Of a DNA stretch of 64,000 nt, positions 12,001 to 48,233 are shown piece after piece. Source of the DNA: Meghimatium bilineatum. Taxonomy: Eukaryota > Mollusca > Gastropoda > Stylommatophora > Philomycidae. The DNA lies in contig CM067317.1 in the NCBI GenBank assembly GCA_034231615.1, forward strand, positions 19,861,379-19,925,378. The letters are read 5' to 3'. Within the stretch, counting starts at the first letter, position 1. Each line of letters starts with the position of its first letter. The notes under the pieces are model-generated. The model saw nothing but the letters and a program-made list of their open reading frames with translations. It had not been told where the DNA came from and made no database searches. A program made the position numbers and the translations under genes.

Positions 12001-15000
12001 GCTAGTAAAGTTTACTGAGCATATTCCCACTGGCTCCCCATGTGGTTCCACTTAGTTTTCTCAGGATAGATAACTTCGTTCTGGCGTTTGTTGTTGCTTT
12101 GTTTATGTGCTGCTTCCATGTCAGCTTATCATCAAAAGTAACTCCGAGGTATGTGGGCTGTTTGTCTTCTTTCAAGAGCTCTCCATCTATCTTGATATGG
12201 CCGACTTTTTGTTTTGGTGAGAGGGTAAAGAGTGTAGTGCTGCACTTATCTGTATTAATGCTGACGCACCATCTATTTGCCCATAAGGTTAGGGCATCGA
12301 TAGCTCTTTGTATTTGTTTAGTGGCCACTGTTGCATGTTCTTCCGTGCACCAGATGACCAGGTCGTCAGCATAAATTGCCACTTTGGTCCCGTGTGGTAG
12401 TTCAGCAACTAGGTCATTGATGAAAACCAAGAAAAGTGTGGGTGACAGGACTCCTCCCTGGGGGACTCCATGACGCAGGACTTTCTTGCTCTTGCGACTA
12501 TCGAATTGTACCCTGGCTCTTCTATTATGCAGGTATGCTTTTACCAATTTGTACATTCGTGAGCTAACCCTGCAGTTTTGCAATTTCTTTAAGAACCCTT
12601 CTTTCTAGACCTTATCAAATGCTTTCCTGACGTCTATCCATGCTGCAAGTACCAATTTCTAATCGTGGAAGGCATCCTCAATCTCTTGGGAGAGGTACGT
12701 TGCCTGATCTTCAGTAGAGTAGCACTGTCTGAAATCCGCTTGCTGTGATACCAGAAGGTTTTCACTTTCAAGGTTCATCCAATGATATTATCACTTTAAA
12801 AAAAAGTATATTTGTATATTACTTATATTTATTCAATTTGTGTCATTCTAACAGATGAAGCTAATTTCTATAATTTCTTCATAGATGGATTTTATTTTTA
12901 CTTTCACAGGTACACATAATTCAGGTACATTCTCGTTGTCTAAAACTCTATCACCTGATTTAGATAAACTATGGGACTTATCATCCAAAACACCTTCTGA
13001 ACGTGCAGTTAAAGAAAGATTGATTTTCAACTGGGCACCGTGCCAGAAACTTGACTTCACACAACAGCTGTATGCTGGAATTCGTTACTTTGATGTGCGA
13101 GCTGCAGCCATGACAGGATCAGAAGACATTTTTATTGTGCATAGCGTTTTTGGACCAAAGGTTTGTAAATAAAAAATATAGAGTTAATAAAAACAATGTC
13201 TGTTCATTCTCAACAGGCCCATAATTGCTCATTGTTTTTTCCCGCAGATGATGAAGGGTTTTCGTTCTGATAGTTCCTGTAGATGTATCATCTTCTTCAT
13301 AGTTGACTCATGCGACATTTGAAGTCACAATTCTATCTTAACACTATGCAGATGGTTTCATATGAAAATCATTCCTCATTGAACTCTTGTAAAGGCTGTA
13401 CAACAACTATTTTCTCCTTTTTGATCACAAATCATATTTTTTAATATTAAAATATAGTTTCCTAAGTGACGGGTAATGCTAGGTATACCATTTTACTGCA
13501 GATGTGTCAACGTGTCTGACAGAAATAGATGAACTAGTTGTCCCAGAATGTGTATGCTATGCTCCTGGCAGCATGTGATGACCCTGAGATACAACTGTTA
13601 TGGAATGCCTCCATTTAGGGACTAAACATGCATCCATAGACTCCAAACATGTTTTTGAGGCAACCAAACCTTAAACGAGTTTGGGTGACACCATGGTTTG
13701 GATGACACCAAAGCATAGTTTCTAAACAAACCTCCGCCATCTTGTACTATCTTTAGCTATTGCATCTATAAATAACCAAACTGCCAGAGGATATGTGACA
13801 AGGTTGAGAGTGCCTTAGTAACTTAATAAATAAGCAATTAATACTATGTTGATGAAACTTACTGTATCTTAGTTGATGAAACTTACTGTATCTTAGTTGA
13901 TGAAACTTACTGTATCTTAGTTGATGAAACTTACTGTATCTTAGTTGATGAAACTTACTGTATCTTAGTTGATGAAACTTACTGTATCTTAGTTGATGAA
14001 ACTTACTGTATCTTAGTTGATGAAACTTACTGTATCTTAGTTGATGAAACTTACTGTATCTTAGTTGATGAAACTTACTGTATCTTAGTTGATGAAACTT
14101 ACTGTATCTTAGTTGATGAAACTTACTGTATCTTAGTTGATGAAACTTACTGTATCTTAGTTGATGAAACTTACTGTATCTTAGTTGATGAAACTTACTG
14201 TATCTTAGTTGATGAAACTTACTGTATCTTAGTTGATGAAACTTACTGTATCTTAGTTGATGAAACTTACTGTATCGTAATTGATGACACTTACTGTATC
14301 TTAGTTGATGAAACTTACTGTATCTTAGTTGATGAAACTTACTGTATCTTAGTTGATGAAACTTACTGTATCTTAGTTGATGAAACTTACTGTATCTTAG
14401 TTGATGAAACTTACTGTATCTTAGTTGATGAAACTTACTGTATCTTAGTTGATGAAACTTACTGTATCTTAGTTGATGAAACTTACTGTATTGTAATTGA
14501 TGAAACTTACTGTATCGTAATTGATGATACTTACTGTATCGTAATTGATGAAACTTACTGTATCGTAATTAATGAAACTTACTGTATCGTAATTGATGAA
14601 ACTTACTGTATCTTAATTGATGAAACTTACTGTATCTTAATTGATGAAACTTACTGTATCTTAGTTGATGAAACTTACTGTATTGTAATTGATGAAACTT
14701 ACTGTATCGTAATTGATGATACTTACTGTATCGTAATTGATGAAACTTACTGTATCGTAATTGATGAAACTTAATGTATCTTAGTTGATGAATCTTACTG
14801 TATCTTAGTTGATGAAACTTACTGTATCTTAGTTGATGAAACTTACTGTATCTTAGTTGATGAAACTTACTGTATCTTAGTTGATGAAACTTACTGTATC
14901 TTAGTTGATGAAACTTACTGTATCTTAGTTGATGAAACTTACTGTATCTTAGTTGATGAAACTTACTGTATCTTAGTTGATGAAACTTACTGTATCGTAA

Positions 15001-18000
15001 TTGATGAAACTTACTGTATCTTAGTTGATGAAACTTACTGTATCGTAATTGATGAAACTTACTGTATCTTAGTTGATGAAACTTACTGTATCTTAGTTGA
15101 TGAAACTTACTGTATCGTAATTGATGAAACTTACTGTATCTTAGTTGATGAAACTTACTGTATCTTAGTTGATGAAACTTACTGTATCTTAGTTGATGAA
15201 ACTTACTGTATCTTAGTTGATGAAACTTACTGTATCTTAGTTGATGAAACTTACTGTATCTTAGTTGATGAAACTTACTGTATCTTAGTTGATGAAACTT
15301 ACTGTATCTTAGTTGATGAAACTTACTGTATCTTAGTTGATGAAACTTACTGTATCGTAATTGATGAAACTTACTGTATCTTAGTTGATGAAACTTACTG
15401 TATCTTAGTTGATGAAACTTACTGTATCGTAATTGATGAAACTTACTGTATCTTAGTTGATGAAACTTACTGTATCTTAGTTGATGAAACTTACTGTATC
15501 TTAGTTGATGAAACTTACTGTATCTTAGTTGATGAAACTTACTGTATCTTAGTTGATGAAACTTACTGTATCTTAGTTGATGAAACTTACTGTATCTTAG
15601 TTGATGAAACTTACTGTATCTTAGTTGATGAAACTTACTGTATCTTAGTTGATGAAACTTACTGTATCTTAGTTGATGAAACTTACTGTATCTTAGTTGA
15701 TGAAACTTACTGTATCTTAGTTGATGAAACTTACTGTATCTTAGTTGATGAAACTTACTGTATCTTAGTTGATGAAACTTACTGTATCTTAGTTGATGAA
15801 ACTTACTGTATCTTAGTTGATGAAACTTACTGTATCTTAGTTGATGAAACTTACTGTATCTTAGGTGATGAAACTTACTGTATCTTAGTTGATGAAACTT
15901 ACTGTATCTTAGTTGATGAAACTTACTGTATCTTATATGATGAAACTTACTGTATCGTAATTGATGAAACTTACTGTATCTTAGTTGATGAAACTTACTG
16001 TATCTTAGTTGATGAAACTTACTGTATCTTAGTTGATGAAACTTACTGTATCTTAGTTGATGAAAATTACTGTATCGTAATTGATGAAACTTACTGTATC
16101 TTAGTTGATGAAACTTACTGTATCTTAGTTGATGAAACTTACTGTATCTTAGTTGATGAAACTTACTGTATCTTAGTTGATGAAACTTACTGTATCGTAA
16201 TTGATGAAACTTACTGTATCTTAGTTGATGAAACTTACTGTATCTTAGTTGATGAAACTTACTGTATCTTAGTTGATGAAACTTACTGTATCTTAGTTGA
16301 TGAAACTTACTGTATCGTAATTGATGAAACTTACTGTATCTTAGTTGATGAAACTTACTGTATCTTAGTTGATGAAACTTACTGTATCTTAGTTGATGAA
16401 ACTTACTGTATCGTAATTGATGAAACTTACTGTATCTTAGTTGATGAAACTTACTGTATCTTAGTTGATGAAACTTACTGTATCTTAGTTGATGAAACTT
16501 ACTGTATCTTAGTTGATGAAACTTACTGTATCGTAATTGATGAAACTTACTGTATCTTAGTTGATGAAACTTACTGTATCTTAGTTGATGAAACTTACTG
16601 TATCTTAGTTGATGAAACTTACTGTATCTTAGTTGATGAAACTTACTGTATCTTAGTTGATGAAACTTACTGTATCTTAGTTGATGAAACTTACTGTATC
16701 GTAATTGATGAAACTTACTGCAACTTAGTTGATGAAACTTAATGTATCTTAGTTGATGAAACTTAATGTATCTTAGTTGATGAAACTTACTGTATCTTAG
16801 TTGATGAAACTTACTGTATCTTAGTTGATGAAACTTACTGTATCGTAATTGATGAAACTTACTGTATCTTAGTTGATGAAACTTACTGTATCTTAGTTGA
16901 TGAAACTTACTGTATCTTAGTTGATGAAACTTACTGTATCTTAGTTGATGAAACTTACTGTATCTTAGTTGATGAAACTTACTGTATCTTAGTTGATGAA
17001 ACTTACTGTATCGTAATTGATGAAACTTACTGTATCTTAGTTGATGAAACAATACTGTATCGTAATTGATGAAACTTACTGTATCTTAGTTGATGAAACT
17101 TACTGTATCTTAGTTGATGAAACTTACTGTATCTTAGTTGATGAAACTTACTGTATCTTAGTTGATGAAACTTACTGTAACTTAGTTGATGAAACTTACT
17201 GTATCTTAGTTGATGAAACTTACTGTATCTTAGTTGATGAAACTTACTGTATCTTAGTTGATGAAACTTACTGTATCGTAATTGATGAAACTTACTGTAT
17301 CTTAGTTGATGAAACTTACTGTATCTTAGTTGATGAAACTTACTGTATCTTAGTTGATGAAACTTACTGTATCTTAGTTGATGAAACTTACTGTATCTTA
17401 GTTGATGAAACTTACTGTATCTTAGTTGATGAAACTTACTGTATCTTAGTTGATGAAACTTAATGTATCTTAGTTGATGAAACTTACTGTATCTTAGTTG
17501 ATGAAACTTAATGTATCTTAGTTGATGAAACTTACTGTATCTTAGTTGATGAAACTTACTGTATCTTAGTTGATGAAACTTACTGTATCTTAGTTGATGA
17601 AACTTACTGTATCGTAATTGATGAAACTTACTGTATCTTAGTTGATGAAACTTACTGTATCTTAGTTGATGAAACTTACTGTATCTTAGTTGATGAAACT
17701 TACTGTATCTTAGTTGATGAAACTTACTGTATCGTAATTGATGAAACTTACTGTATCTTAGTTGATGAAACTTACTGTATCTTAGTTGATGAAACTTACT
17801 GTATCTTAGTTGATGAAACTTACTGTATCTTAGTTGATGAAACTTACTGTATCGTAATTGATGAAACTTACTGTATCTTAGTTGATGAAACTTACTGTAT
17901 CTTAGTTGATGAAACTTACTGTATCGTAATTGATGAAACTTACTGTATCTTAGTTGATGAAACTTACTGTATCTTAGTTGATGAAACTTACTGTATCGTA

Positions 18001-21000
18001 ATTGATGAAACTTACTGTATAGTAATTGATGAAACTTACTGTATCTTAGTTGATGAAACTTACTGTATCTTAGTTGATGAAACTTACTGTATCTTAGTTG
18101 ATGAAACTTACTGTATCGTAATTGATGAAACTTACTGTATCTTAGTTGATGAAACTTACTGTATCTTAGTTGATGAAACTTACTGTATCGTAGTTGATGA
18201 AACTTACTGTATCGTAATTGATGAAACTTACTGTATCTTAGTTGATGAAACTTACTGTATCTTAGTTGATGAAACTTACTGCAACTTAGTTGATGAAATT
18301 TACTGTATCTTAGTTGATGAAACTTAATGTATCTTAGTTGATGAAACTTACTGTATCTTAGTTGATGAAACTTACTGTATCTTAGTTGATGAAACTTACT
18401 GTATCGTAATTGATGAAACTTACTGCAACTTAGTTGATGAAACTTAATGTATCTTAGTTGATGAAACTTAATGTATCTTAGTTGATGAAACTTACTGTAT
18501 CTTAGTTGATGAAACTTAATGTATCTTAGTTGATGAAACTTACTGTATCGTAGTTGATGAAACTTACTGTATCTTAGTTGATGAAACTTACTGTATCTTA
18601 GTTGATGAAACTTACTGTATCTTAGTTGATGAAACTTACTGTATCGTAATTGATGAAACTTACTGCAAATTAGTTGATGAAACTTAATGTATCTTAGTTG
18701 ATGAAACTTAATGTATCTTAGTTGATGAAACTTACTGTATCTTAGTTGATGAAACTTACTGTATCTTAGTTGATGAAACTTACTGTATCGTAATTGATGA
18801 AACTTACTGTATCTTAGTTGATGAAACTTACTGTATCTTAGTTGATAAAACTTACTGTATCTTAGTTGATGAAACTTACTGTATCGTAATTGATGAAACT
18901 TACTGTATCTTAGTTGATGAACCTTACTGTATCTTAGTTGATGAAACTTACTGTATCGTAGTTGATGAAACTTACTGTATCGTAATTGATGAAACTTACT
19001 GTATCTTAGTTGATGAAACTTACTGTATCTTAGTTGATGAAACTTACTGCAACTTAGTTGATGAAATTTACTGTATCTTAGTTGATGAAACTTAATGTAT
19101 CTTAGTTGATGAAACTTACTGTATCTTAGTTGATGAAACTTACTGTATCTTAGTTGATGAAACTTACTGTATCGTAATTGATGAAACTTACTGCAACTTA
19201 GTTGATGAAACTTAATGTATCTTAGTTGATGAAACTTACTGTATCTTAGTTGATGAAACTTACTGTATCTTAGTTGATGAAACTTAATGTATCTTAGTTG
19301 ATGAAACTTACTGTATCTTAGTTGATGAAACTTAATGTATCTTAGTTGATGAAACTTACTGTATCTTAGTTGATGAAACTTACTGTATCTTAGTTGATGA
19401 AACTTACTGTATCTTAGTTGATGAAACTTACTGTATCGTAATTGATGAAACTTACTGTATCTTAGTTGATGAAACTTACTGTATCTTAGTTGATGAAACT
19501 TACTGTATCTTAGTTGATGAAACTTACTGTATCTTAGTTGATGAAACTTACTGTATCGTAATTGATGAAACTTACTGTATCTTAGTTGATGAAACTTACT
19601 GTATCTTAGTTGATGAAACTTACTGTATCTTAGTTGATGAAACTTACTGTATCGTAATTGATGAAACTTACTGTATCTTAGTTGATGAACCTTACTGTAT
19701 CTTAGTTGATGAAACTTACTGTATCGTAGTTGATGAAACTTACTGTATCGTAATTGATGAAACTTACTGTATCTTAGTTGATGAAACTTACTGTATCTTA
19801 GTTGATGAAACTTACTGCAACTTAGTTGATGAAATTTACTGTATCTTAGTTGATGAAACTTAATGTATCTTAGTTGATGAAACTTACTGTATCTTAGTTG
19901 ATGAAACTTACTGTATCTTAGTTGATGAAACTTACTGTATCGTAATTGATGAAACTTACTGCAACTTAGTTGATGAAACTTAATGTATCTTAGTTGATGA
20001 AACTTAATGTATCTTAGTTGATGAAACTTACTGTATCTTAGTTGATGAAACTTAATGTATCTTAGTTGATGAAATTTACTGTATCTTAGTTGATGAAACT
20101 TAATGTATCTTAGTTGATGAAACTTACTGTATCTTAATTGATGAAACTTAATGTATCTTAGTTGATGAAACTTACTGTATCTTAGTTGATGAAACTTACT
20201 GTATCTTAGTTGATGAAACTTACTGTATCTTAGTTGATGAAACTTACTGTATCTTAGTTGATGAAACTTACTTTATCGTAATTGATGAAACTTACTGTAT
20301 CTTAGTTGATGAAACTTACTGTATCTTAGTTGATGAAACTTACTGTATCTTAGTTGATGAAACTTACTGTATCTTAGTTGATGAAACTTACTGTATCTTA
20401 GTTGATGAAACTTACTGTATCTTAGTTGATGAACTTACTGTATCTTAGTTGATGAAACTTACTGTATCTTAGTTGATGAAACTTACTGTATCTTAGTTGA
20501 TGAAACTTACTGTATCTTATTTGATGAAACTTACTGTATCTTAGTTGATGAAACTTACTGTATCGTAGTTGATGAAACTTACTGTATCTTAGTTGATCAA
20601 ACTTACTGTATCTTAGTTGATGAAACTTACTGTATCTTAGTTGATGAAACTTACTGTATCTTAGTTGATCAAACTTACTGTATCTTAGTTGATGAAACTT
20701 ACTGTATCGTAGTTGATGAAACTTACTGTATCTTAGTTGATCAAACTTACTGTATCTTAGTTGATGAAACTTACTGTATCTTAGTTGATGAAACTTACTG
20801 TATCTTAGTTGATGAAACTTACTGTATCTTAGTTGATAAAACTTACTGCATCTTAGTTGATGAAACTTACTGTATCTTAGTTGATGAAACTTACTGTATC
20901 TTAATAGATGAAACTTACTGTATCTTAGTTGATGAAACTTACTGTATCGTAGTTGATGAAACTTACTGTATCTTAGTTGATCAAACTTACTGTATCTTAG

Positions 21001-24000
21001 TTGATGAAACTTACTGTATCTTAGTTGATGAAACTTACTGTATCTTAGTTGATCAAACTTACTGTATCTTAGTTGATGAAACTTACTGTATCGTAGTTGA
21101 TGAAACTTACTGTATCTTAGTTGATCAAACTTACTGTATCTTAGTTGATGAAACTTAATGTATCTTAGTTGATGAAACTTAATGTATCTTAGTTGATGAA
21201 ACTTACTGTATCTTAGTTGATGAAACTTACTGTATCTTAGTTGATGAAACTTACTGTATCGTAATTGATGAAACTTACTGCAACTTAGTTGATGAAACTT
21301 ACTGTATCTTAGTTGATGAAACTTAATGTATCTTAGTTGATGAAACTTACTGTATCTTAGTTGATGAAACTTACTGTATCTTAGTTGATGAAACTTACCG
21401 TATCTTAGTTGATGAAACTTACTGTATCTTAGTTGAAGAAACTTACTGTATCTTAGTTGATGAAACTTACTGTATCTTAGTTGATGAAACTTACTGTATC
21501 TTAGTTGATGAAACTTACTGTATCTTAGTTGATGAAACTTACTGTATCTTAGTTGATGAAACTTACTGTATCTTAGTTGATGAAACTTACTGTATCTTAG
21601 TTGATGAAACTTACTGTATCTTAGTTGATGAAACTTACTGTATCTTAGTTGATGAAACTTACTGTATCTTAGTTGATGAAACTTACTGTATCGTAGTTGA
21701 TGAAACTTACTGTATCTTAGTTGATCAAACTTACTGTATCTTAGTTGATGAAACTTACTGTATCTTAGTTGATGAAACTTACTGTATCTTAGTTGATGAA
21801 ACTTACTGTATCTTAGTTGATGAAACTTACTGTATCTTAGTTGATGAAACTTACTGTATCGTAGTTGATGAAACTTACTGTATCTTAGTTGATGAAACTT
21901 ACTGTATCTTAGTTGATGAAACTTACTGTATCTTAGTTGATGAAACTTACTGTATCTTAGTTGATGAAACTTACTGTATCTTAGTTGATGAAACTTACTG
22001 TATCTTAGTTGATGAAACTTACTTTATCGTAATTGATGAAACTTACTGTATCTTAGTTGATGAAACTTACTGTATCTTAGTTGATGAAACTTACTGTATC
22101 TTAGTTGATGAAACTTACTGTATCTTAGTTGATGAAACTTACTGTATCTTAGTTGATGAAACTTACTGTATCTTAGTTGATGAACTTACTGTATCTTAGT
22201 TGATGAAACTTACTGTATCTTAGTTGATGAAACTTACTGTATCTTAGTTGATGAAACTTACTGTATCTTAGTTGATGAAACTTACTGTATCTTAGTTGAT
22301 GAAACTTACTGTATCGTAGTTGATGAAACTTACTGTATCTTAGTTGATCAAACTTACTGTATCTTAGTTGATGAAACTTACTGTATCTTAGTTGATGAAA
22401 CTTACTGTATCTTAGTTGATGAAACTTACTGTATCTTAGTTGATGAAACTTACTGTATCTTAGTTGATGAAACTTACTGTATCTTAGTTGATGAAACTTA
22501 CTGTATCTTAGTTGATGAAACTTACTGCATCTTAGTTGATGAAACTTACTGTATCTTAGTTGATGAAACTTACTGTATCGTAATTGATGAAACTTACTGT
22601 ATCGTAATTGATGAAACTTACTGCATCTTAGTTGATGAAACTTACTGTATCTTAGTTGATGAAACTTACTGTATCGTAATTGATGAAACTTACTGTATCG
22701 TAATTGATGAAACTTACTGTATCGTAATTGATGAAACTTACTGTATCTTAGTTGATGAAACTTACTGTATCGTAATTGATGAAACTTACTGTATCGTAAT
22801 TGATGAAACTTACTGTATCGTAATTGATGAAACGTACTGCAACTTAGATGATGAAACTTAGTATCTATTTCATCTAGCACTTTTCAAATACTGCACATAA
22901 TACTGCACAGGTATAATCACACAAATAATAATACACAGGACATAATAGATGTTTTGACCAAAAAGCATTTATCAAGATAAGCACATAACATCAAAAGACG
23001 ACGAGTAGAAATGACAACGACACACACACAGGTGTACGAGCAATATGTGGATGTGAGATGCCGGAAATATAGGAACAGGAAGTACATAGAAACTTAAATA
23101 TTGGGGTGTAAAGGTCCTTGCATTGCTCTCGCGAGGACCAGGGTTAGCAGAAAACCAAGATCCTAAAAGCACCTCCTTGTGGTGCACCCTGGAAATAGAA
23201 ATACAGTGGCTCTTGCTGTATTCCTGGCTAATGCTTTTAGGCTCGTGTTCGTGGATGTGAGAATACTGTAGATGGAATGAGAACTGCCTGCAGAGAGACA
23301 CGAGATATCTCAGAAACCTCTATACCATCGCATCCAACATATGCATGGCATCTGTGCTTTCCGACCTGGCCAGCTTAAAAAGCAGAAACATTGGAGGGGC
23401 GGCCAATGTGAATGTCCCTAACATACAGTGATTTGTATACACGTCATATGTAAAAGTTAACACTTGCTAGAGGACATCGCTGTGTACATGAATAGATTCA
23501 GTGGCAAGAGAGCTACAATGATCCAGCACAAGACTGACTGGTGTAAGCGTTGTTCATGCTCAAGAAAACTCTGAAGCTGACATGTTTCATCTCAATTGAC
23601 CCCGTTCAAAGTAGGAGTTATGACTCAGGTAATGGATACGCCAAGGTATTGGATACGTCAACTAGAACATGTACTCTTGGGTATGGAAGAAAGCTTTGAA
23701 TACAGCTTCCCATTGCACACAGGACAAGCATTGAACACATGTTGGTGAGCTCTTTGTTCAAATGTCTGACCGAAGTAGTGTTGAAACTCGGAATCTGGAC
23801 ACTGAGGGCAATGTAGAGGTGGGGGGTGGGTGCAAGTCCCTACCGACATTGCAAACTTAGCCAAACTCGACTGTCGGTCATTGCATAACACGGCTCATAC
23901 AGAGAGAATTGGGTTCAGTATCCAAGGGCCCACTGCAAAGCCCCTTGCCCAAGATTCGTATGTCTCTGGGTAATATATGCAATGGTGAAGAGTCAAAATA

Positions 24001-27000
24001 CACAAATCGCGCCTGACGATGGATTGGAAGACCATCTCAAGCGGACGAGGTGAGTGCATGAGAAATGCACAGGTCAAACTCCAGACACCCAACGTCCTTG
24101 GCAAATCAGCGCCTCGTCTAGGAAGATATATGAATCCTAGTCTAATTTGACCATCACCGTTACCCAACATGGCTCATATGGAAGAAACTAGGTCTGGGAC
24201 CTAGCAACAGAAAGGGTGGTAATGGAATGGTCTTCCTACACGAGGAACAGCTCGCTGGTTGCGAAGTGCCTCGTCAGAAGATAGACAAACACTGGGTGAC
24301 TCAAGCAAAGTATCAGACCACAGAGTCTTGTCTCATGTACCTCCCCTGAGTAGAAGGGTCCTCCAATAGCAATTGCACCAAACCAAAAGGTGAAGCCTCC
24401 TGGGTATGAAAGAAAGCTCAGAAACCTCCCATTGCAGATAGGAAGTAAGAGCTAATCGCTCGCTCGTAATTCCTGGGGTTCTCAAACAAACAACGTAAAT
24501 ATATGTGGAAATGAAACAAACAAAAGATTATGTAAAAGATTTCCTTAGTTCTTTCTCCATTTAGTTACCTGTATTATTAAAGTGGAATCCCTCTATAGCG
24601 CATTCTTTTATAACATATTTTCCAATATAACAACACTTTTCAAAATCTCAAAAAATATTCAAACATATTTATTCTATATTATTTATACTGTATGTAGCGA
24701 AGATATGTTATTACATACATATTTAATATTTTGTTTGTCCAAACCAAGTTGTTATTTTGGTACTCCACTATACTACTTGATTTATAATTTTATTAATCTC
24801 TAATTTACCTACAAATAATCGACAGGTATCAGATCTTGTTGAGGCTGTGTTGATGTTTTTGGAAGCACACAATCATGAAGTTGTACTCCTAGATTTTAAT
24901 CATTTTTATGCCATGGATAAAAAAGATCATAAACAACTTATGGACTATATCATCTCAAAGTTTGGCTCAAGAATATGTAACAAGTGTGATGACATCAGTA
25001 AACTAACTCTACACAATCTGTGGCAGCAAGAGAAACAGGTAAATGATAATAAAATATGTAACAAGTAAACTAACTTTACAGAATCTTTTTTGTTCCAACA
25101 TAGCAAACCAATCAAAGATATATCATAAAATTCCTGTTTGTTGTTGGGTCTGAAAGGACAGCAAAGAAGAGCAACACTGTTATCTGCCAGGCATGTTGTA
25201 AGAGGTGACTAAGGATGTATGGCTCACAAGCACATGAATATATCACACAATGGCATTGCGTCAAAGGTCATGAGCCCATGGACTGCTGGACCAGCAATCA
25301 ACCAACCAAAGAGGTTTGGCAGATGGAGTTGACTGTCCCATCCCATAGAGGGTCAAAGTAACACAGAAGCCATGCTGAAGTTGGATGTGTCAGGCTGAAA
25401 GGCGCAGATATCACAGGTAAGTTATAAATCATGACACAGCAAACTCCATTATCCGGACTACATTCTGCTAACTTGCAGGAGTTTGAGAATGAATGCAGAA
25501 GAAGTATATTAGAAGAAATATGACAAATAGTGAACAAATGAAAGATTAGATGGCTGTTTTCCATATAGCATAAATTCACCAGGGATAACAAATACATCTT
25601 AAGATAAGATAAGTAAGACAAAACTGGACAGTAATTATGAAAGTCCAAAGGGGAGGGGGGAATCTATTAGTCTCTAATACCAGCAAATGTATGGACATAT
25701 ATGGCCAGATTAATAGCCATCCAGACTGGTAAAAGGTAGGGCAATGTTGACCATACCTATCAATCAAATTAGTGAAAGTGGCCAGTATAAAATGCAAAAA
25801 ATGTGATAGACACGTAGTGAAGCATGGATGGTATACTAGCAAAATGGCTATGGATTGCTGTTATTCAGTGGAATCAGTAAAATGCTAAATGTTTTCTTTT
25901 GTGTTCATTCTCAAACTTCTGCAGATTAGCAGAATGTTGTCTGGAGAAAAGAATGTTTTGTGTCATGGTTTACAGCTTCGGTTGTGATTTCTGCACTTTT
26001 CGATCTGGTACAACAGACTGCAGCATGGCTTGTGGGTCACTTAGACCCTTCCCCCCACTCCCCAACGTTTAAGAGATTATGTGTCATATATTTGGTCTGC
26101 AGTGGTTTGACAAATTTCCAAAAATGTACAATCACTAATGAAAAATATGTTTGTTTGTTTGTTTTGCGTTCGCTCCATTGTAACCATCACGGGCATCCGT
26201 GCAATTTCCGCCGGGAGCGTGATTACGCTGTGCCACCGTTATGCGCCTTGCAGGCCCAGAACATCCGATTTCGGCATACCCCGACAATTCGGGTGGGCCA
26301 CCCCCAGCCTGTGACAGCCTCCATATCTGTCTCCAGGCACGCGCAGTGGCGACTCTTCGCCCAGACGATTCTCGCTCTCGACCGACTCGTACGAGGTGTT
26401 CCACTGTCTATGAACCCGCCTCGTGTAATTGGACGCGCTGCGCCTGTGCCCATTGGGCACTGAACCGTTTCTCATCCGTGAGCCTGGTTCCTCAAGAGGA
26501 AGAACCCAACAGAGGAGCTGGGCCCTGGCTCCTTCGCCCTCCTAGCCAAGGTGTCATTCACCGACATCGTGTACCCCTTGTCCAAGTTCGAGTCTCACAC
26601 CACGCGCCCGAGAGCAAGGCGTTCTCGAGCTGATCGTCCTTGTCCCAATAGCGCCCGAGCCCATCAGGTACTGAACCCTTTCTCTCCTCAAGTGTACCTC
26701 CGGTGTAGGAAAACCCGACAGCAGAGCTGGGCCAGGGCCAAATCGTTGTCCCTCTTGTGCCTGAACCCATCGGGCACGGAACCCTTTCTCTCTACAAGTG
26801 CACCTCCGGTATAGGAAACCCTGACAGTAGAGTTGGACCAGAACCACCATCGTTGTCCCCCTCTTACCTAAGCCCATCGGGCACAGAACCCCCTCTCTTC
26901 GCGAGCATACTTCCGGTCTAGGAAGGCCCAACACTAGAGTTGGACTAGGTCCTCCTACTCCACCAAACACCAATGAATTGGTCTGGGTCTCTGCCTTCAA

Positions 27001-30000: not shown

Positions 30001-31927
30001 GGACAGGGTATGAAGTTTCCAAACTCATCAGGATGGTAGAGGATAGAGATACGTGGAGATCTTTCTGCATAAAATGTCTCAATGTGACATTCCTACGACC
30101 ATGAATGATTATGGTTTCATTAATTTTAATAATTATTATTATGACATCTTGTTTACAAGTACATTTTTCAAAAGCTTCCTTGAGACTATTATTTGAACTG
30201 CAGAGTTATGTGCTTTGAATGATACTATCAGTGAGCAAGCACTGCCATGTTGAGAGATAGAGTACATGTGAGAAAATCCTAGTAATTCTCTTAGTGAAGC
30301 ACTCAACATATTCTTATTAGATTGTGTACGTGTATAGTTACTTATACAGTGGAATCCCATTATAACAGCTTGGTCCAGATCAGAAAATACGTATATAATA
30401 GCAGAAATTTGTCATATATATAGTACAAACAATATAGAATAAATATCATTGGCGATTTTGAAAAGTGTTGTTAAACAAGAATATTTGTTACAACAGATTG
30501 CACTATTTAGGGACTCTACTATATTTGATTTTTGTGATACATCTCCAACTTAGTTCTGGTTTTTTCTAGAAAGATATTTCTAGAATAGTATAGATATTTA
30601 CTATAGTATAGATATTTACTATAGTATAGATATTTACTCTAGTATGGATATTTACTCTAGTATAGATATTTACTCTAGTATAGATATTTATTCTAGTATA
30701 GATATTTACTCTAGTATAGATATTTACATTGCTCTTTGTGATATTTGTACTTCTATCAAGAGTATGTTGTATTTCTATTCTCTGCAAAGATATGATATTT
30801 ACATCTTTCTACCCAGATTAATGGTTTTCAGCAATTTTTGGCATAGAATTTCTACAGGATAGCCATCCATCCTTTGTCTCCTGCTGCATGCATGGCAGAT
30901 CATGTTACTGTTCTTTGCTTCTTTTTCAAACCATGGCATCACACAAGCACAATTTATGCTTGTTAACCAGTTTTTGTAACCAGCTTTAATCCCAGTTTGT
31001 ATCCATGATATTTCAAAGAATGATTTATAATTTTCTGATCTTGCATTCTTGCTTTCAATCCAAACCTATCAAAATTTTATGATATCTTGTACCACTGATT
31101 GTTTTAAATCTTGAGTTTTCCCCTAATTTACACTTTTTAGCATCCATTCATCATTTATTAAGTGCTGTAGTTAATATAGTAATTGAATCATAAGTTGCAG
31201 CAGGGAGGTGCAGAGTTCACTTTGGACAGCTAAAGAAACAGGTTCTATTTCTGCTACAAGATGTTATGCATTCAAACCATTCAGACAGCAATGGCAACCT
31301 ACTGAACAAAAAAATTGTTTTTGAACCACAAGTGTTTGAATCTGAGTTGTATTTGTGAGAAGGGCGTATTTACCAAACGACTGCACCAAAATTATGTACA
31401 GTACCTATAATAATAATATATAAATAACTATAGTGTGTTTGTTCGACTCTGTGGCAGTGTGATACAGAGTGCGTATGTGACAGCCAAGGTACCCAATTCA
31501 AAGCCAGCCTCAGGTAATTGTACATCCAGACCTTTCAGAAAACAATGGAAAACTGCAGAATGTAAATACTGCCAAGAAAATCATTATAGACAAAAAATGC
31601 TGGGTTGACGGCTACATTTTGTATAGGATATGCTATAATTTTTAAAATAATTTAACTGTTTCTTTAACACAATGTTCTACTAGTCTTACTGTCAGTTTTC
31701 ATTTCATTACAGGAGTACTTACACCAAACGAAAAAACAATACGTGATAACTTAGATTGGAATGTGAAAACTCTAAGTGATTCCTTGCTGCCATTACTGTG
31801 TTCCTGGATAGATCATCACAATGCTTATCCACTGACCATTGTCATTGCAGACTTTATAGAGAATGGAGACTTGATACAAAAAATACTAGCTCTAAACTAT
31901 AAACGAGCTGTGCATGTGAAGATCTAA
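8904..31927 (+). CDS. PLCXD: PI-PLC X-domain-containing protein, complete five-exon gene
   Basis: Coding exons are 8904-9036, 12910-13160, 24826-25038, 27633-27798 and 31713-31927. Their lengths (133+251+213+166+215) sum to 978 nt, or 325 residues plus stop, close to the roughly 320 residues of vertebrate PLCXD proteins. Every junction is GT-AG and the phases agree (1,0,0,1). Landmarks are the leading AIPGTHNS with H47, GIRYFDVR at 101-108, the second active-site-like H122 in IVHS, LLDFNHF at 149-155, WANT at 225-228, and the C-terminal IVIADFI near 297-303. PLCXD proteins have only the X half of the PLC catalytic barrel and lack PH, EF-hand, Y and C2 domains; they are generally cytosolic with poorly known substrates. 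No signal peptide or membrane segment is seen. Which vertebrate paralogue (1, 2 or 3) is closest was not decided. Introns are 3.9, 11.7, 2.6 and 3.9 kb and packed with repeats. Confidence 0.93.
9148..9385 (+). repeat. Dispersed repeat R, near full-length copy
   Basis: It contains the blocks shared by all R copies in order: TTCTCAAACTCCTGCAGATT, the TGTATCATGGTTTACATCTT-like box, ACTTCAGCATGGCTTCTGGG, TCACTTTGACCCTATATAGG, and a closing TTGCCTCTTACAACATGTAT box. It is non-coding. The class is undetermined. Confidence 0.65.
9588..9745 (+). repeat. Dispersed repeat R, 5'-truncated copy
   Basis: It starts within the GACACATCCAACTTCAGCAT block and continues through the TGGGACAGCC and AAGTTGCATCTTAGAATATG boxes, diverged from the copy 400 bp upstream. 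Confidence 0.6.
10700..12772 (-). mobile_element. (GAA)n-tailed LINE, copy A, 5'-truncated, intron 1 of PLCXD
   Basis: On the minus strand it is very similar to the intact copy at 44382-48233, from the RT region (matching about 46145 there) through YADDLVIW and RNase H to the zinc knuckle and (GAA)n tail. It is flanked by a 9-bp duplication GTTCATCCA at 10691-10699 and 12773-12781, which supports target-primed insertion. Small indels break the frame (pieces at 12002-12583, 11278-11607, 11027-11290 and 10693-11067). For example, KSKKVLRHGV has lost one residue relative to the intact copy. Antisense to the host gene. Confidence 0.9.
12910..13160 (+). CDS. PLCXD: PLCXD exon 2 (residues 45-128)
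   Basis: The acceptor TTTCACAG ends at 12909. The exon completes G45 and encodes the catalytic THNS, the substrate-cleft strand GIRYFDVR and the second catalytic-type histidine IVHSVFGPK. The donor is GTTTGT at 13161, phase 0. Confidence 0.93.
13161..13847. other. PLCXD intron 2, unique-looking start
   Basis: No gene, mobile-element domain or clear repeat was found before the satellite begins. Confidence 0.4.
13848..22865. repeat. 24-bp satellite array, about 375 units, in PLCXD intron 2
   Basis: Some 9 kb of head-to-tail units share the core GATGAAACTTACTGTATC. Units fall into two main types that differ at two bases three positions apart in the link between cores: TTAG-T versus GTAA-T; a GTAG-T intermediate also exists. 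Only three phase slips were seen: +1 near 17050, and -1 near 20431 and 22182. Because 24 is a multiple of 3 and the unit lacks stops in some frames, long frames appear on both strands (827 codons at 14569-17052 minus; 140 codons at 17041-17463 plus; 235 codons at 22173-22880 minus). These are artefacts. Higher-order periods are described in the findings. The GTAA type clusters near both edges (about 14480-14770 and 22565-22830). Confidence 0.98.
22866..23099. other. Satellite-flanking DNA with a fragment of the TIR element seen at 44234
   Basis: Bases 22915-22985 share GTTTTGACCAAAAAGCATTT and ATCAAGA-type sequence with 44275-44330, the left half of the TIR element that hosts the intact LINE. 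No gene found. Confidence 0.45.
23100..24495 (+). repeat. Unclassified repeat T, long copy
   Basis: It is colinear with 38310-39180: GCATTGCTCTCG, GGTTAGCAG.AAACCAAGATCC, GTGCACCCTGGAAA, then the shared 3' end with GGTATGAAAGAAAGCTCAGA, GGAAGTAAGAGCTAATCG and AATTCCTGGGGTTCTCAAAC. It ends in a short CAAA-type run. The copy has an internal duplication: the near-terminal box at 24395-24460 has a diverged partner at 23675-23740. There is no intact reading frame; the minus-strand frames here are not conserved. Confidence 0.6.
24574..24775. mobile_element. Possible pogo/Tigger-like MITE directly before exon 3
   Basis: The left end AGTGGAATCCCTCTATA and the right end, read inverted, AGTGGAGTACC, resemble pogo-type terminal repeats. 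It is similar to the element at 30348-30526, including the CAACACTTTTCAAAATC box. The ends are imperfect. Confidence 0.4.
24826..25038 (+). CDS. PLCXD: PLCXD exon 3 (residues 129-199)
   Basis: The acceptor ATCGACAG ends at 24825. It encodes 71 codons containing VVLLDFNHFYAM, which matches the conserved EVVFLDFNHFYG block of PLCXD proteins, and ends TLHNLWQQEKQ. The donor is GTAAAT at 25039, phase 0. Confidence 0.93.
25039..25309. other. PLCXD intron 3, start
   Basis: AT-rich. A piece near 25140-25210 (GGCATGTTGTAAGAGGTGAC) is a fragment of repeat R read in reverse. No gene. Confidence 0.4.
25310..25520 (-). repeat. Dispersed repeat R, minus-strand copy
   Basis: Reverse complement of the R order: GGGTCAAAGTAACACAGAAG, CCATGCTGAAGTTGGATGTG, CTGCTAACTTGCAGGAGTTT. 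It forms an inverted pair with 25866-26075. Confidence 0.65.
25866..26075 (+). repeat. Dispersed repeat R, plus-strand copy
   Basis: It reads GTTCATTCTCAAACTTCTGC, AGATTAGCAGAATGTTGTCT, GTGTCATGGTTTACAGC, then CAGCATGGCTTGTGGGTCAC. It lies about 350 bp from an inverted partner in the same intron. Confidence 0.65.
26150..27483 (-). mobile_element. GC-rich retroposon G (1334 bp) with 17-bp TSD
   Basis: An abrupt GC- and CpG-rich island in AT-rich DNA. It is flanked by an exact 17-bp duplication CACTAATGAAAAATATG at 26133-26149 and 27484-27500. On the minus strand it begins GGGGTGCAAAGGGAACGC and ends in an (AAAC)n tail, the form expected of a target-primed retroposon. The first 330 bp are homologous to repeat T (GGTTGGCAG, CCAAGATCC, GTGCACCCTGGAAACAGAAA, ACATTGGAGGGGCGGCCAAT). 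The middle contains an imperfect tandem block. The last 120 bp are homologous to 48247-48364. No RT or other known domain was recognised, so it is probably non-autonomous. Confidence 0.75.
26449..26960. repeat. Imperfect tandem block inside retroposon G (about 105 bp)
   Basis: CCCATCGGGCAC-GAACC boxes recur at 26449, 26660, 26768 and 26872. Each of the later ones is followed by a CTCCGGT.TAGGAAA.CC box and an AGAGTTGGACCAG-type box. Spacings are 211, 108 and 104 bp, so the first interval may be two units. The overlapping frames in several phases are repeat-driven. Confidence 0.7.
27633..27798 (+). CDS. PLCXD: PLCXD exon 4 (residues 200-254 and first base of G255)
   Basis: The acceptor ACATTTGCAG ends at 27632. 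It encodes VIIFYRN, FWPAESISSSWANTDNP and DFIVCQ, matching the VLVFYH, LWPG..PAPWANTTDP and FISQ order of PLCXD proteins. The donor is GTAAAA at 27799, phase 1. Confidence 0.93.
27868..28022 (-). repeat. Repeat T, short 3' fragment
   Basis: The minus strand matches the 3' end of the copy at 23100-24495: GGTATGAAAGAAAGCTCAGA, GGAAGTAAGAGCTAATCGG, AATTCCTGGGGTTCTAAAAC, with an A-rich tail. It is 5'-truncated and sits in intron 4, 70 bp after exon 4. Confidence 0.6.
28023..29284. other. PLCXD intron 4, left part
   Basis: AT-rich and non-coding. A short R-like piece (TTATAACATGCATAGCAGGT) lies at 29090-29185. The small frames at 28030-28268 are unsupported. Confidence 0.35.
29285..29555 (-). mobile_element. 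(GAA)n-tailed LINE, copy B, strongly 5'-truncated
   Basis: The minus strand gives the C-terminal zinc-knuckle block (MCTCGKAAQSAKHILQECSE) and the LESKLYGTLYKLQ end, then the GAA-rich tail, like the intact copy. A 12-bp flanking repeat with one mismatch (TCTTATGTTCAT at 29273, TCTTAAGTTCAT at 29562) is a probable target duplication, with six unexplained bases at the 5' junction. Antisense to PLCXD. Confidence 0.85.
29670..30105 (+). pseudogene. LINE fragment: RT C-terminal region, third LINE type
   Basis: The reading order is KSLVLLYGCEI, then LERKIQGFENKCYSRLLRM, then a broken stretch, then LQGTVEERRQGGQKKTWMDN and IKDWTG. This is the standard C-terminal order of a common animal LINE. Several stops make it a relic. 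Sense relative to PLCXD. Confidence 0.75.
30348..30526. mobile_element. Pogo/Tigger-like MITE
   Basis: TA is followed by CAGTGGAATCCCATTATAAC at the left, and at the right the inverted TAGTAGAGTCCCTAAATA is followed by TA. These are pogo-type ends with a TA target. It shares an internal TTTTGAAAAGTGTTGTT box with 24574-24775. No transposase frame. Confidence 0.5.
30589..30727. repeat. 18-bp minisatellite, about 8 units
   Basis: Unit TAGTATAGATATTTACTC with ATAG/CTAG variants. It gives repetitive Ser-Ile-Asp-Ile-Tyr frames on the plus strand and Val-Asn-Ile-Tyr-Thr frames on the minus strand, both artefacts. Confidence 0.95.
30728..31712. other. PLCXD intron 4, right part
   Basis: No recognised gene or repeat; AT-rich, unassigned. 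Confidence 0.35.
31713..31927 (+). CDS. PLCXD: PLCXD exon 5 (terminal; residues 255-325 and stop)
   Basis: The acceptor TTTCATTACAG ends at 31712. The exon completes G255 and encodes VLTPNEKTI, LLPLLCSWI and TIVIADFIENGDLI, matching the VVLTP, LPAMMQWV and NIVTADFV order of PLCXD proteins. The stop is TAA at 31925. Confidence 0.93.
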
Positions 31928-42170: not shown

Positions 42171-42251
42171 GTGTCTCTCATTTTCTGTTCTGGCAGACAT
42201 TTTCTGGTGGGGAGAAAAATAGAACTGGGTAAAAGAAAGGATAGTTCAGTC

Positions 42252-42790
42252 ACTCTGTGTTTTAGTACTATTGGATTCTGTGGGGCTTCATCAATCTGTG
42301 TTTTAGTACTATTGGATTCTGTGGGGCTTCATCATTCTGTGTTTTAGTACTATTGGATTCTGTGGGGCTTCATCAATCTGTGTTTTAGTACTATTGGATT
42401 CTGTGGGGCTTCATCACTCTGTGTTTTAGTACTATTGGATTCTGTGGGGCTTCATCACTCTGTGTTTTAGTACTATTGGATTCTGTGGGGCTTCATCATT
42501 CTGTGTTTTAGTACTATTGGATTCTGCGGGGCTTCATCACTCTGTGTTTTAGTACTATTGGATTCTGTGGGGCTTCATCACTCTGTGTTTTAGTACTATT
42601 GGATTCTGCGGGGCTTCATCACTCTGTGTTTTAGTACTATTGGATTCTGCGGGGCTTCATCACTCTGTGTTTTAGTACTATTGGATTCTGCGGGGCTTCA
42701 TCATTCTGTGTTTTAGTACTATTGGATTCTGCTGGGCTTCATCACTCTGTGTTTTAGTACTATTGGATTCTGCGGGGCTTCATCACTATG
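42252..42790. repeat. 41-bp minisatellite, about 13 units
   Basis: Unit contains CTGTGTTTTAGTACTATTGG then ATTCTGYGGGGCTTCATCA. Units vary mainly at a T/C before GGGG and at the base after CATCA. The early units carry TGTGGGG and later ones TGCGGGG, so variants are positionally clustered. Confidence 0.97.
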
Positions 42791-44233: not shown

Positions 44234-44370
44234 CTTGTAACAGAGTAATGAAGTTTTGCTAATCACTAGTTGCACACATAATAAAAACATACAAAATGAT
44301 GTTTGACCAAAAGGCCTTTATCAAGAACACAAAGAAATGATGTTTATGCATGTTAGACTCCTGATTTTAT

Positions 44371-47300
44371 ATGAGCATAATATCTAATAAACGTTATGGT
44401 GCCTGCCCTGTGGCGGACGTTCAGGCAGGGACGGTGCCGGGCCCTATACCTCGAAAGGGCCCAACCTCAGTTACTGGAAGTCCTTCTCAATTGCCCCGAG
44501 GAGCCAGGAGGCAAGGGAATAGAGCTACTGGCCAAACAAACAAACGACCAATAAAAATAATGCACTGGAATGCTGAGGGTGTCAACAGTAAAAGAGATGG
44601 ATACAGCAAAAAATTGGAACTTGAAAATGTCCTCAGTGAAGAACAAGTAAATATATGCTGTATCCAAGAAACACACCTCAGCAGCGACATAGCCTTCAAA
44701 ATCAGAGGCTACCAGTGCTACCGATCTGACCGAAAAGACAGGCGAAAGGGTGGAATTCTGACACTAGTTAAAAACAATATCAGCGCATGTCAGCTGGAAG
44801 TATACATGGACGGGGCAGAATACCAGATGCTCCACCTAAAAACAGACAGTGCAGAATTCCATCTCCTGAACTACTACTGCCCAAATGATAAACCATTGGC
44901 ACTAGACACAATTCCAGACAAAGAAAGGCTTATGGTGTGTGGTGACTTCAACAGCCACTCTCAGAGCTGGGGCTACGATCATATCGACAAGAGAGGTGAG
45001 GAACTTGAGAGCTGGCAGGATGAAAATAATCTCATTCTTATTAACCAGCCAGCAGACTCACCAACCTTCTACTCGAGAGCATGGCACACCACCTCTACAC
45101 CAGACCTGGCATTCTACTCACCAGGCCTGGAATGGAACATCACACGTGTCGTTGGAAAGCAGCTTGGGGGTAGTGACCACAGACCAGTATTTCTGGAAAT
45201 TCACAATGAATATACCAAGGACAGCAGCACGCTCACTAGGTGGAACTATAAGAGGGCAGACTGGAAAATGTACCAGCATTTAACCAGTGTTCTAGCTAAG
45301 GACATGAACTTGGACAAAGACATCAATAGAGCAGTGAGTGAATTTAATAGATGTATACTACATGCTGCTAGTAAAACCATACCCAGGGGGGCACGCAAAA
45401 ACTACAAACCCTACTGGAATGATGAACTGGAAAAGCTGCAAAATGAGATGGAAACATCTAGAAAGCAGGCCGAGAACAGACCTAGCCAAGAACATCACAA
45501 CAAATATCAGCAAACAAAGGCTAAATTTCAAAGAGCCAAGTTACAAGCCAGACGGAGCAGCTGGAAAGAAAAAACAGAGTCGCTGAACCTAGAAAGAGAT
45601 ACTAGGAAATTATGGAAACTTGTAAAACAACTAAATGATGAAGGTACAGGGAGAAATACCAGGATCACACTTTATAAAGATAGAAACATTTTAACAGGTA
45701 AACATGCAGCTGATTACTTTGCAGATTCCTTTGCAGAAGACAATAACGTCAAAGTCAGCCCAGACAAACAACAGGAGGTTCGAGAGAACCAGCAAAACAT
45801 TGGACAAGGTGAACCTATACCTGAAGTCATGGAGGCACCAATCACAATGAGAGAACTGGAGCATGCAATATCCAAATTGAAAATGAAAAAGTCCCCTGGA
45901 GCTGATGGAGTGTCCAATGAAATGATTAGAAACCTGGGAAGTGCAGCAAGAGCAAAGCTACTGCAGATCTTTAACACAAGCTGGTCCACAGGTAATTTAC
46001 CACAGGCGTGGAGAGAAGCAATAATGATACCACTCCTCAAATCAGGAAAAGATGGCAACACAGTCTCCAACTACAGGCCCATCAGCCTCACAAGCTGTCT
46101 ATGTAAAACAATGGAACGCATTATCAATCTTAGGATGCAGTGGTACCTTGAAAGTGAAAACCTTCTGGTATCACAGCAAGCAGGTTTCAGACAGTGCTAC
46201 TCTACTGAAGATCAGGCAACCTACCTCTCCCAAGAGATTGAGGATGCCTTCCAAGAAAAGAAACTGGTACTAGCAGCATGGATAGACCTCAGGAAAGCAT
46301 TTGATAAGGTCTGGAAAGAAGGGCTCCTAAAGAAATTGCGAAATTGCAGGGTTAGCTCAAGAATGTACAAATGGGTAAAAGCATACCTGCATAATAGAAG
46401 AGCCAGGGTACAATTAGATGGTCGCAAGAGCAAGAAAGTTCTACTGCGTCATGGAGTCCCCCAGGGAGGAGTCCTGTCACCCACACTTTTCTTGGTTTAC
46501 ATCAATGACCTAGTTGCTGAACTACCACACGGGATCAAAGTGGCAATGTATGCTGACGACCTGGTGATCTGGTGCACGGAAGAACATGCAACAGTGGCCA
46601 CTAAACAAATACAAAGAGCTATCGATGCCCTAACCTTATGGGCTAATAGATGGTGCGTCAGCATTAACACAGATAAGTGCAGCACTACACTCTTTACCCT
46701 CTCACCAAAACAAAAAGCTGGTCATATCAAGATAGATGGAGAGCTCTTGAAAGAAGACAAACAACCCACATACCTCGGAGTTACTTTTGATGATAAGCTG
46801 ACATGGAAGCAGCACATAAACAAAGCAACAACAAAAGCCAGGAGGAAGCTAGCTATCCTGAGAAAACTAAGTGGAACCACATGGGGAGCCAGTGGAAATA
46901 TACTCAGTAAAGTTTACCAGCAAGGCATAAGACCACACCTGGAATACGGTTCAGCTGCGTGGTGTCCTGCATCAAACACCACATTACAAGATCTAGATAA
47001 AGTGCAAAACCAGGCACTTAGAATAATGTTGGGAGCAATGAAATCAACACCCATAGCAGAGATGCAGAAAATGGGAAGAATGCAAACACTTGGCGAACGC
47101 AGAGACACAAAAGTACTAATTCAAGCAGAAAAGTTTCAGTGTATGCCAAGTCATCCAATGAAGGAAAGATTCCAAAATCTAGCAATGGGACGACTGAAAA
47201 GGAGCAGCTTTATCCATCAAGCTAAACGACTCCGTAGACAACTTACAGACCTACCTGAAGTTGGCAGCCCCTTAAGGTCTGTACCAGAGCAAACCCCGTG

Positions 47301-48198: not shown

Positions 48199-48233
48199 AC
48201 ATGTTTCAAGTGAACGAAAGAAGAAGAAGAAAA
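44382..48233 (+). mobile_element. (GAA)n-tailed LINE, copy C, intact reading frame
   Basis: A 3.85-kb insertion bounded by an exact 13-bp duplication ATATGAGCATAAT at 44369-44381 and 48234-48246, ending in a GAA-repeat tail. It matches copies A, B and D in their shared parts. It carries no separate ORF1 and may be 5'-truncated; the first 190 bp are GC-rich and encode a Pro/Gly/Arg-rich stretch. Confidence 0.93.

Follow-up and report, generated by a model that had tools for sequence, protein, structure and literature searches.

A locus-private intronic minisatellite in a tandemly triplicated PLCXD-like gene of Meghimatium bilineatum: 376 units in one gene copy and about 26 in its neighbour

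We analysed a stretch of 64,000 nucleotides from the gastropod Meghimatium bilineatum (positions 19861379-19925378 of contig CM067317.1, here C20, in a 1.61-Gb assembly of 32 contigs that represents one haplotype). This whole stretch, hereafter the window, contains a 9-kb array of 24-bp units within an intron of a PLCXD-like gene that is present in three tandem copies, named C, A and B in their order along the contig. Our findings make it probable that the array is a variable number tandem repeat (VNTR) private to this locus, that it predates the separation of copies A and B, and that it grew about 15-fold in copy B through the copying of blocks. Coordinates without a contig name refer to the window, and the gene and array features are given on its plus strand.

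Tandem Repeats Finder (TRF) placed the array at 13848-22860, with a period of 24, 375.6 copies and 96% matches. Decomposition into units, for which one stray base at the array edge was removed beforehand, moved the end to about 22866 once the final partial unit was included (13848-22866). The resulting 376 units consisted of 372 full 24-mers, two 23-mers, one 25-mer and the final partial unit. The consensus unit, GTTGATGAAACTTACTGTATCTTA, was exact in 211 of them, with 35 unit types overall, and the left end of the array is formed by a run of 17 exact consensus units (13848-14255). An initial annotation of this stretch had described a 24-bp satellite of 9 kb and about 375 units at 13848-22865. 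Both TRF and the decomposition agree with this description, and all 20 marker positions that it quoted were found to be correct, with identical context inside each set of markers. With head-to-tail units that fall within a range of roughly 7-100 bp, the array has the make-up of a minisatellite or VNTR. DNA folding of the repeated units gave weak hairpins only (z of -1.9 for two units and -2.3 for four units of the plus strand, and -0.6 for the minus strand).

A 265-kb self-comparison, in which matches of 700 bp or more were listed, revealed that the array belongs to a module present in three tandem copies with a spacing of about 42-52 kb. These are copy C (about 19.78-19.81 Mb), copy A (19.816-19.853 Mb, or about C20:19816097-19853392) and copy B, which takes up positions 1-43759 of the window. 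Copies A and B are separated by insertions and deletions, and their flanks diverged by 2.48% in an alignment of seven pieces with 32,912 columns in total, the values for 500-bp blocks ranging from 0.0 to 8.0%. The identity between C and B was about 69-94% in blocks around the gene and up to 96% further along. The array-bearing intron of copy B is 11,665 bp long, compared with 7,108 bp for the homologous intron of copy A and 1,354 bp for that of copy C.

At the same intron site, copy A contains an array of 25.4 units (about 26; C20:19828271-19828880), with its left flank identically placed. A retroposon of 3,271 bp that lacks long terminal repeats (non-LTR; C20:19828881-19832151) is inserted in the last unit of this array. 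It is bounded on both sides by a 10-bp target-site duplication, GTTGATGAAA, after which the right flank follows as at the edge of the array in B. The array of copy A is therefore complete and does not represent a truncated remnant. The inserted retroposon is 97% identical to one at 44974-48231 of the window. Six position variants were common to the arrays of A and B, including a CGTAATTG doublet and the combination CGTAATTG...CTGCAACTTA, which indicates that a varied array was present before A and B parted. No array was found at the homologous site in copy C, where the intron holds a different stretch of 940 bp, and a low-stringency search of this intron for the immediate flanks of the array returned nothing convincing.

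The initial annotation had left it to a genome-wide search whether the 24-mer is centromeric or private to this locus. When a 31-base pattern was searched with up to 3 mismatches against the whole assembly, 389 forward and 0 reverse matches were obtained, 25 of which lie in A and 364 in B, with none at other loci. At the level of the assembled sequence, the repeat is thus private to two paralogous arrays and does not behave as a centromeric or dispersed satellite, for which the same unit would be expected at many loci or on many chromosomes. A VNTR is confined to one or few loci and varies in copy number, and such variation is seen here between paralogs (25.4 versus 375.6 units). Weak matches of 66-75% were present elsewhere. 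The 10 places that were read, a set lying outside those on C1, C3 and C6, were minisatellites with TRF periods of 15, 20, 22, 23, 27, 28, 33 or 41 bp. We also considered whether the array could have arisen by expansion of the core of a dispersed mobile element, or be part of a satellite found throughout the genome. Dispersed repeats do lie nearby, one to the left (about 13460-13692) and one to the right (about 23103-24493). However, among the matches listed (40 of 1703 candidates scored on the left and 40 of 13435 on the right), those on the left end at about 13698 and those on the right start at about 23092, both well short of the array edges. Together with the restriction of the pattern to this locus, this makes such an origin highly improbable.

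The array of copy B contains multi-unit periods. They were assessed with a lag test in which 1000 shuffles of the units served as the reference, the register being set so that the junction between CTTA and G (doublet change CTTAG to CGTAA) fell within one unit. Over the whole array, a period of 768 bp was strongly supported (z 8.9, family-wise p below 0.001) and a period of 120 bp was just significant (z 4.5, family-wise p 0.018). Periods of 1536 bp (z 4.0, p 0.075) and 384 bp (z 3.8, p 0.105) fell short of significance, and the ten best lags did not include 1752 bp. An earlier test in the unshifted register was in agreement for 768 bp (z 10.7) and 120 bp (z 4.4), and gave a z of 2.6 for 384 bp. 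Local tests were performed in zones taken from the coordinates of the initial annotation and their p-values are therefore optimistic. In these zones, the z-values were 13.2 for the 768-bp period (17900-20150), 7.7 for the 384-bp period (20500-21200) and 11.0 for the 1752-bp period (20100-22500), while the 120-bp period gave a z of 4.6 and a p-value of 0.007 at 15850-16450 and a p-value of 0.071 when this zone was extended to 17000. Of the periods originally proposed (120, 384, 768 and 1751 bp), that of 768 bp is strong and that of 120 bp just significant when the whole array is tested, whereas those of 384 and 1751 bp stand out in their own zones only.

On the basis of the lag tests and exact shared runs, the 768-bp (32-unit) higher-order repeat occupies 17999-20136 as three adjacent copies, and the local 120-bp (5-unit) period occupies 15937-16412. 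The 384-bp (16-unit) local repeat extends over approximately 20480-21150, as judged by the lag test. A block at 20152-20741 recurs 1751 bp further downstream (21903-22492) with no more than 3 mismatches and with a one-base deletion common to both, and the right-end zone (22512-22833) shows a local period of 96 bp (226 bp matched at shift 96; local p 0.04). The variant-richest exact shared runs were one of 391 bp for a shift of 768 and one of 384 bp for a shift of 1536. In the best-matching stretches of the 768-bp copies, mismatches number 3 in 657 bases and no more than 3 in 540 (about 0.5%), and whole 768-bp blocks differ at 10 to 19 bases (1.3-2.5%), four starting points having been tried. 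Blocks that resemble each other more closely than neighbouring units do, as is typical of higher-order repeats, were thus found for the 768-bp period, in part of the array only. The notion that these blocks are clearly younger than the A/B split was dropped, as it fits the chosen stretches but not the whole blocks. The suggestion that the 768-bp period represents twice the 384-bp period was not supported: a lag of 384 bp was absent from the five best lags within the 768-bp zone. Since the two zones carry different variant units, the numerical relation is most likely a coincidence.

Array growth was simulated from the units of copy A to a final 376 units, using six block sizes, four mutation rates and 12 runs for each combination, all of our own choosing. 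With steps of 4 units or fewer, the observed shared run was reached in none of 144 runs. This number rose to 8 of 48 runs with blocks of up to 16 units, and to 88 of 96 runs with blocks of up to 32 or 80 units. In 200 unit shuffles, the shared-run score was at most 7, compared to 12 observed. A first statistic had been discarded because single-variant runs scored high and the models were not separated. It should be noted that the simulated unit-type counts spread widely on both sides of the observed 35, with values far lower and far higher, so that the runs serve as a guide to block size only. Within these limits, the simulations suggest that the copying most likely involved blocks of tens of units. 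This supports the local duplication that the initial annotation had invoked, although its proposal of unequal exchange is inseparable from other forms of block copying. The array probably had a modest length before A and B separated, and the array of B would then have grown about 15-fold as blocks of tens of units were copied in tandem again and again. Such copying could proceed by unequal exchange, whether between sister chromatids or between alleles, or by equivalent break-induced copying or template switching, and would give rise to zones with different periods.

The diversity of the units bears on the direction of this change. The array of A had a pi of 0.077 and 12 types in 25 units, and that of B an overall pi of 0.042. 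Every 25-unit run of B was less varied than A (maximum pi 0.073, at most 10 types), as would be expected if B had grown more recently. Alternatively, the ancestral array could have been long, with A contracting to about 26 units and B keeping its length while being rehomogenised. The higher diversity of A argues against this scenario, as does a CATAGTTGCTG doublet that occurs three times in A and is absent from B, which would be unexpected in the remnant of a B-like array. On the other hand, the direction of change is judged indirectly, copy C provides no outgroup state, and the whole 768-bp blocks of B may be about as old as the A/B split. On balance, we regard a contraction of A as unlikely.

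The simplest explanation is that B grew once the two copies had split, but several observations weigh against it. Firstly, the divergence of the whole 768-bp blocks is close to that of the A/B flanks, the low values applying to chosen stretches, and the relative dating of the blocks is therefore weak. Secondly, the diversity of A is only slightly above that of the most varied run of B, and A could have shrunk from a longer array. Thirdly, the unrelated 940-bp stretch in the intron of copy C makes the state before the array unreadable. Furthermore, the divergence between A and B is not uniform: the exon preceding the array, e1, differs by 10.4% between them (C20:19827347-19827597 in copy A), compared to about 2.5% for the flanks. 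Lastly, the array length is that of one assembly and one haplotype. In this respect, an artefactual origin of the 9-kb length or the higher-order structure has to be considered, all the more as the assembly does break at places of this kind, with a 100-N gap at C20:19975855 amid other tandem repeats about 92 kb away. However, the window itself contains no N, the variants and indels are arranged as nested blocks, and both array edges match copy A. We therefore consider an assembly artefact to be very unlikely.

The intron of copy B (13161-24825) has canonical splice sites, with the donor GT at 13161 and the acceptor ending at 24825. The array makes up 77% of it and starts 687 bp from the donor. 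Splice signals and translation define a PLCXD-like exon before the array (12910-13160; GTHNSG...NWAPCQKLDFTQQLYAGIRYFDVR), with homologous exons in copies A and C, and a PLCXD-like exon after it (24826-25038; VSDLVEAVLMFLEAHNHEVVLLDF...). Homology and translation point to a third PLCXD-like coding block for the C-terminal part at approximately 31707-31915. The flanking exons resemble those of PLCXD, though the family match in profile searches was weak. The joined exon pieces matched PI-PLC-X as the best of three Pfam matches, with 19.6 bits (E 7.7e-4) and thus below the cut-off of 23.1, and they matched a solved bacterial PI-PLC with an E-value of 0.0016. When the exons were searched singly, Pfam returned no match at E 0.001, and an NCBIfam search gave no match. 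Of the location in intron 2 of PLCXD that had been proposed, placement in an intron of a PLCXD-like gene between canonical splice sites is supported, with the reservation that the family match is weak. A genome-wide search with the exon pieces returned 9 matches at E 1e-4, all within 19.78-19.90 Mb of C20, which correspond to the three exons in each of the three copies. In the third coding block, at about 31740-31770, B is strongly unlike A and C and differs in length, the rest of this exon being conserved.

As 24 is a multiple of 3, the array could in principle be a coding repeat for an octapeptide, with one frame per strand open for long stretches. Indeed, open stretches reach 655 amino acids on the plus strand and 1081 on the minus strand. 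Nevertheless, all six frames are interrupted across the array by 146 to 548 stops each, which is at variance with a coding repeat. In addition, indels cause frame shifts, and a unit variant that is common in the array (15A, with 22 exact units) brings a TAA into the plus frame. The splice sites on either side of the array are good and belong to another gene. We attach almost no credence to a coding role. The array would instead be removed with the intron, and it most likely has no selected function.

The sense RNA of the array would carry 344 CUUAC motifs, 341 of them within ACUUAC, and 303 UUAG motifs. ACUUAC is the exact complement of the 5' splice-site core GUAAGU and forms part of the 5' end of the U1 small nuclear RNA. 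Conceivably, base pairing could take place between the expanded array and splice donors, or motifs resembling branch points (CUUAC) and acceptors (UUAG) could become available in it by the hundred. If so, splicing of copy B would depend on the repeat number and copy A, with its short array, would hardly be affected. We judge the chance that the array alters the expression or splicing of copy B to be remote.

The history of the three gene copies appears to be mosaic. The 3' part of exon e1 in B is near-identical to that of copy C, a pattern that suggests exchange (gene conversion) among the three copies. For exons e1 and e2, the ratios of nonsynonymous to synonymous substitution rates (dN/dS; exon e3 was excluded as its length differs between copies) were 0.54 for A-B, 0.44 for A-C and 1.03 for B-C. 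Since the dS of 0.119 between A and B is far above the flank divergence, we read these values as probable signs of mosaic exchange among the copies and not of selection. Flank divergence was also compared with A as a possible sign of local mutability beside the array. The right flank shows raised divergence for about 300 bp (4, 6 and 9 per 100). On the left, divergence is raised at 12972-13472 (4 to 16 per 100, much of it within the exon), and the bases nearest to the array show an ordinary 2-3 per 100.

Large intronic minisatellites that have grown in the human lineage include a 30-mer in CACNA1C and a 69-mer in WDR7. These resemble the present array in being large minisatellites, but they do not offer a comparison of paralogs within a tandem duplication. 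For the 30-mer, located at chr12:2255791-2256090, 100-3000 copies are reported (PMC10502081), and further large VNTRs are described there and elsewhere (PMC10502081, PMC8239992). The VNTR in intron 18 of human ABCA7 has a 25-bp unit. Its reference allele comprises 23.7 copies (592 bp), and alleles of 315 to 9711 bp are described; it begins at the splice donor and is reported to change splicing (PMC5954066). It closely parallels the present array in its intronic position and unit, and its reference and 9711-bp allele sizes are near those of copies A and B. ABCA7 nonetheless shows length variation between alleles, whereas the array described here presents a contrast between two gene copies and lies away from the donor. 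Human Xp22.33 contains an 18-kb array with a 61-bp unit and irregular higher-order repeats of 1.6 and 2.5 kb (PMC2588610). It is likewise a simple-unit array outside centromeres with irregular higher-order structure, its sequence and unit being unlike those of the 24-bp array. Several large human arrays in Table 2 of the same report are stated to be intronic, but this table seemingly covers large units and so does not directly exemplify VNTRs that combine an intronic position with higher-order structure (PMC2588610). The Xp22.33 report and the ABCA7 alleles weaken the earlier claim that intronic satellites with higher-order repeats are rare outside centromeres.

The 24-bp array is therefore a known kind of sequence and is not centromeric; what is new is that two gene copies can be compared as a pair. 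One minisatellite occupies an identical site in both, with its two edges kept and with 26 versus 376 units, which constitutes an internally controlled case for minisatellite growth. Moreover, the paired introns provide a case for asking whether a nine-kilobase intronic array affects its gene.

The surroundings are rich in tandem repeats. TRF covered 12.9% of the 265 kb, including 14 minisatellite arrays of 500 bp or more, the 24-bp pair among them, and the next largest of these arrays measures 1.8 kb. In the same module, a 41-bp minisatellite (42245-42787 in B) comprises 13.2 units in B, as against 9.2 in A and 31.2 in C. A change in array length between copies is thus not unique to the 24-bp array, although the latter changed more of the two arrays compared. 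On another contig, C12:4328000-4347800 consists end to end of a 15/30/45-bp array in two adjoining 9.9-kb pieces, which at about 19.8 kb is twice the length of the 24-bp array. Positions 44365-48198 of the window hold an uninterrupted frame of 1277 amino acids with matches to endonuclease, reverse transcriptase and RNase H, and represent a non-LTR retroposon, a copy of which lies at C20:19962073-19965922 with 99.7% identity over 3850 bases. Further along, C20:19966564-19985106 is duplicated in tandem, with 93.9% identity across about 8.5 kb, and includes 37-bp arrays and the 100-N gap at 19975855 mentioned above.

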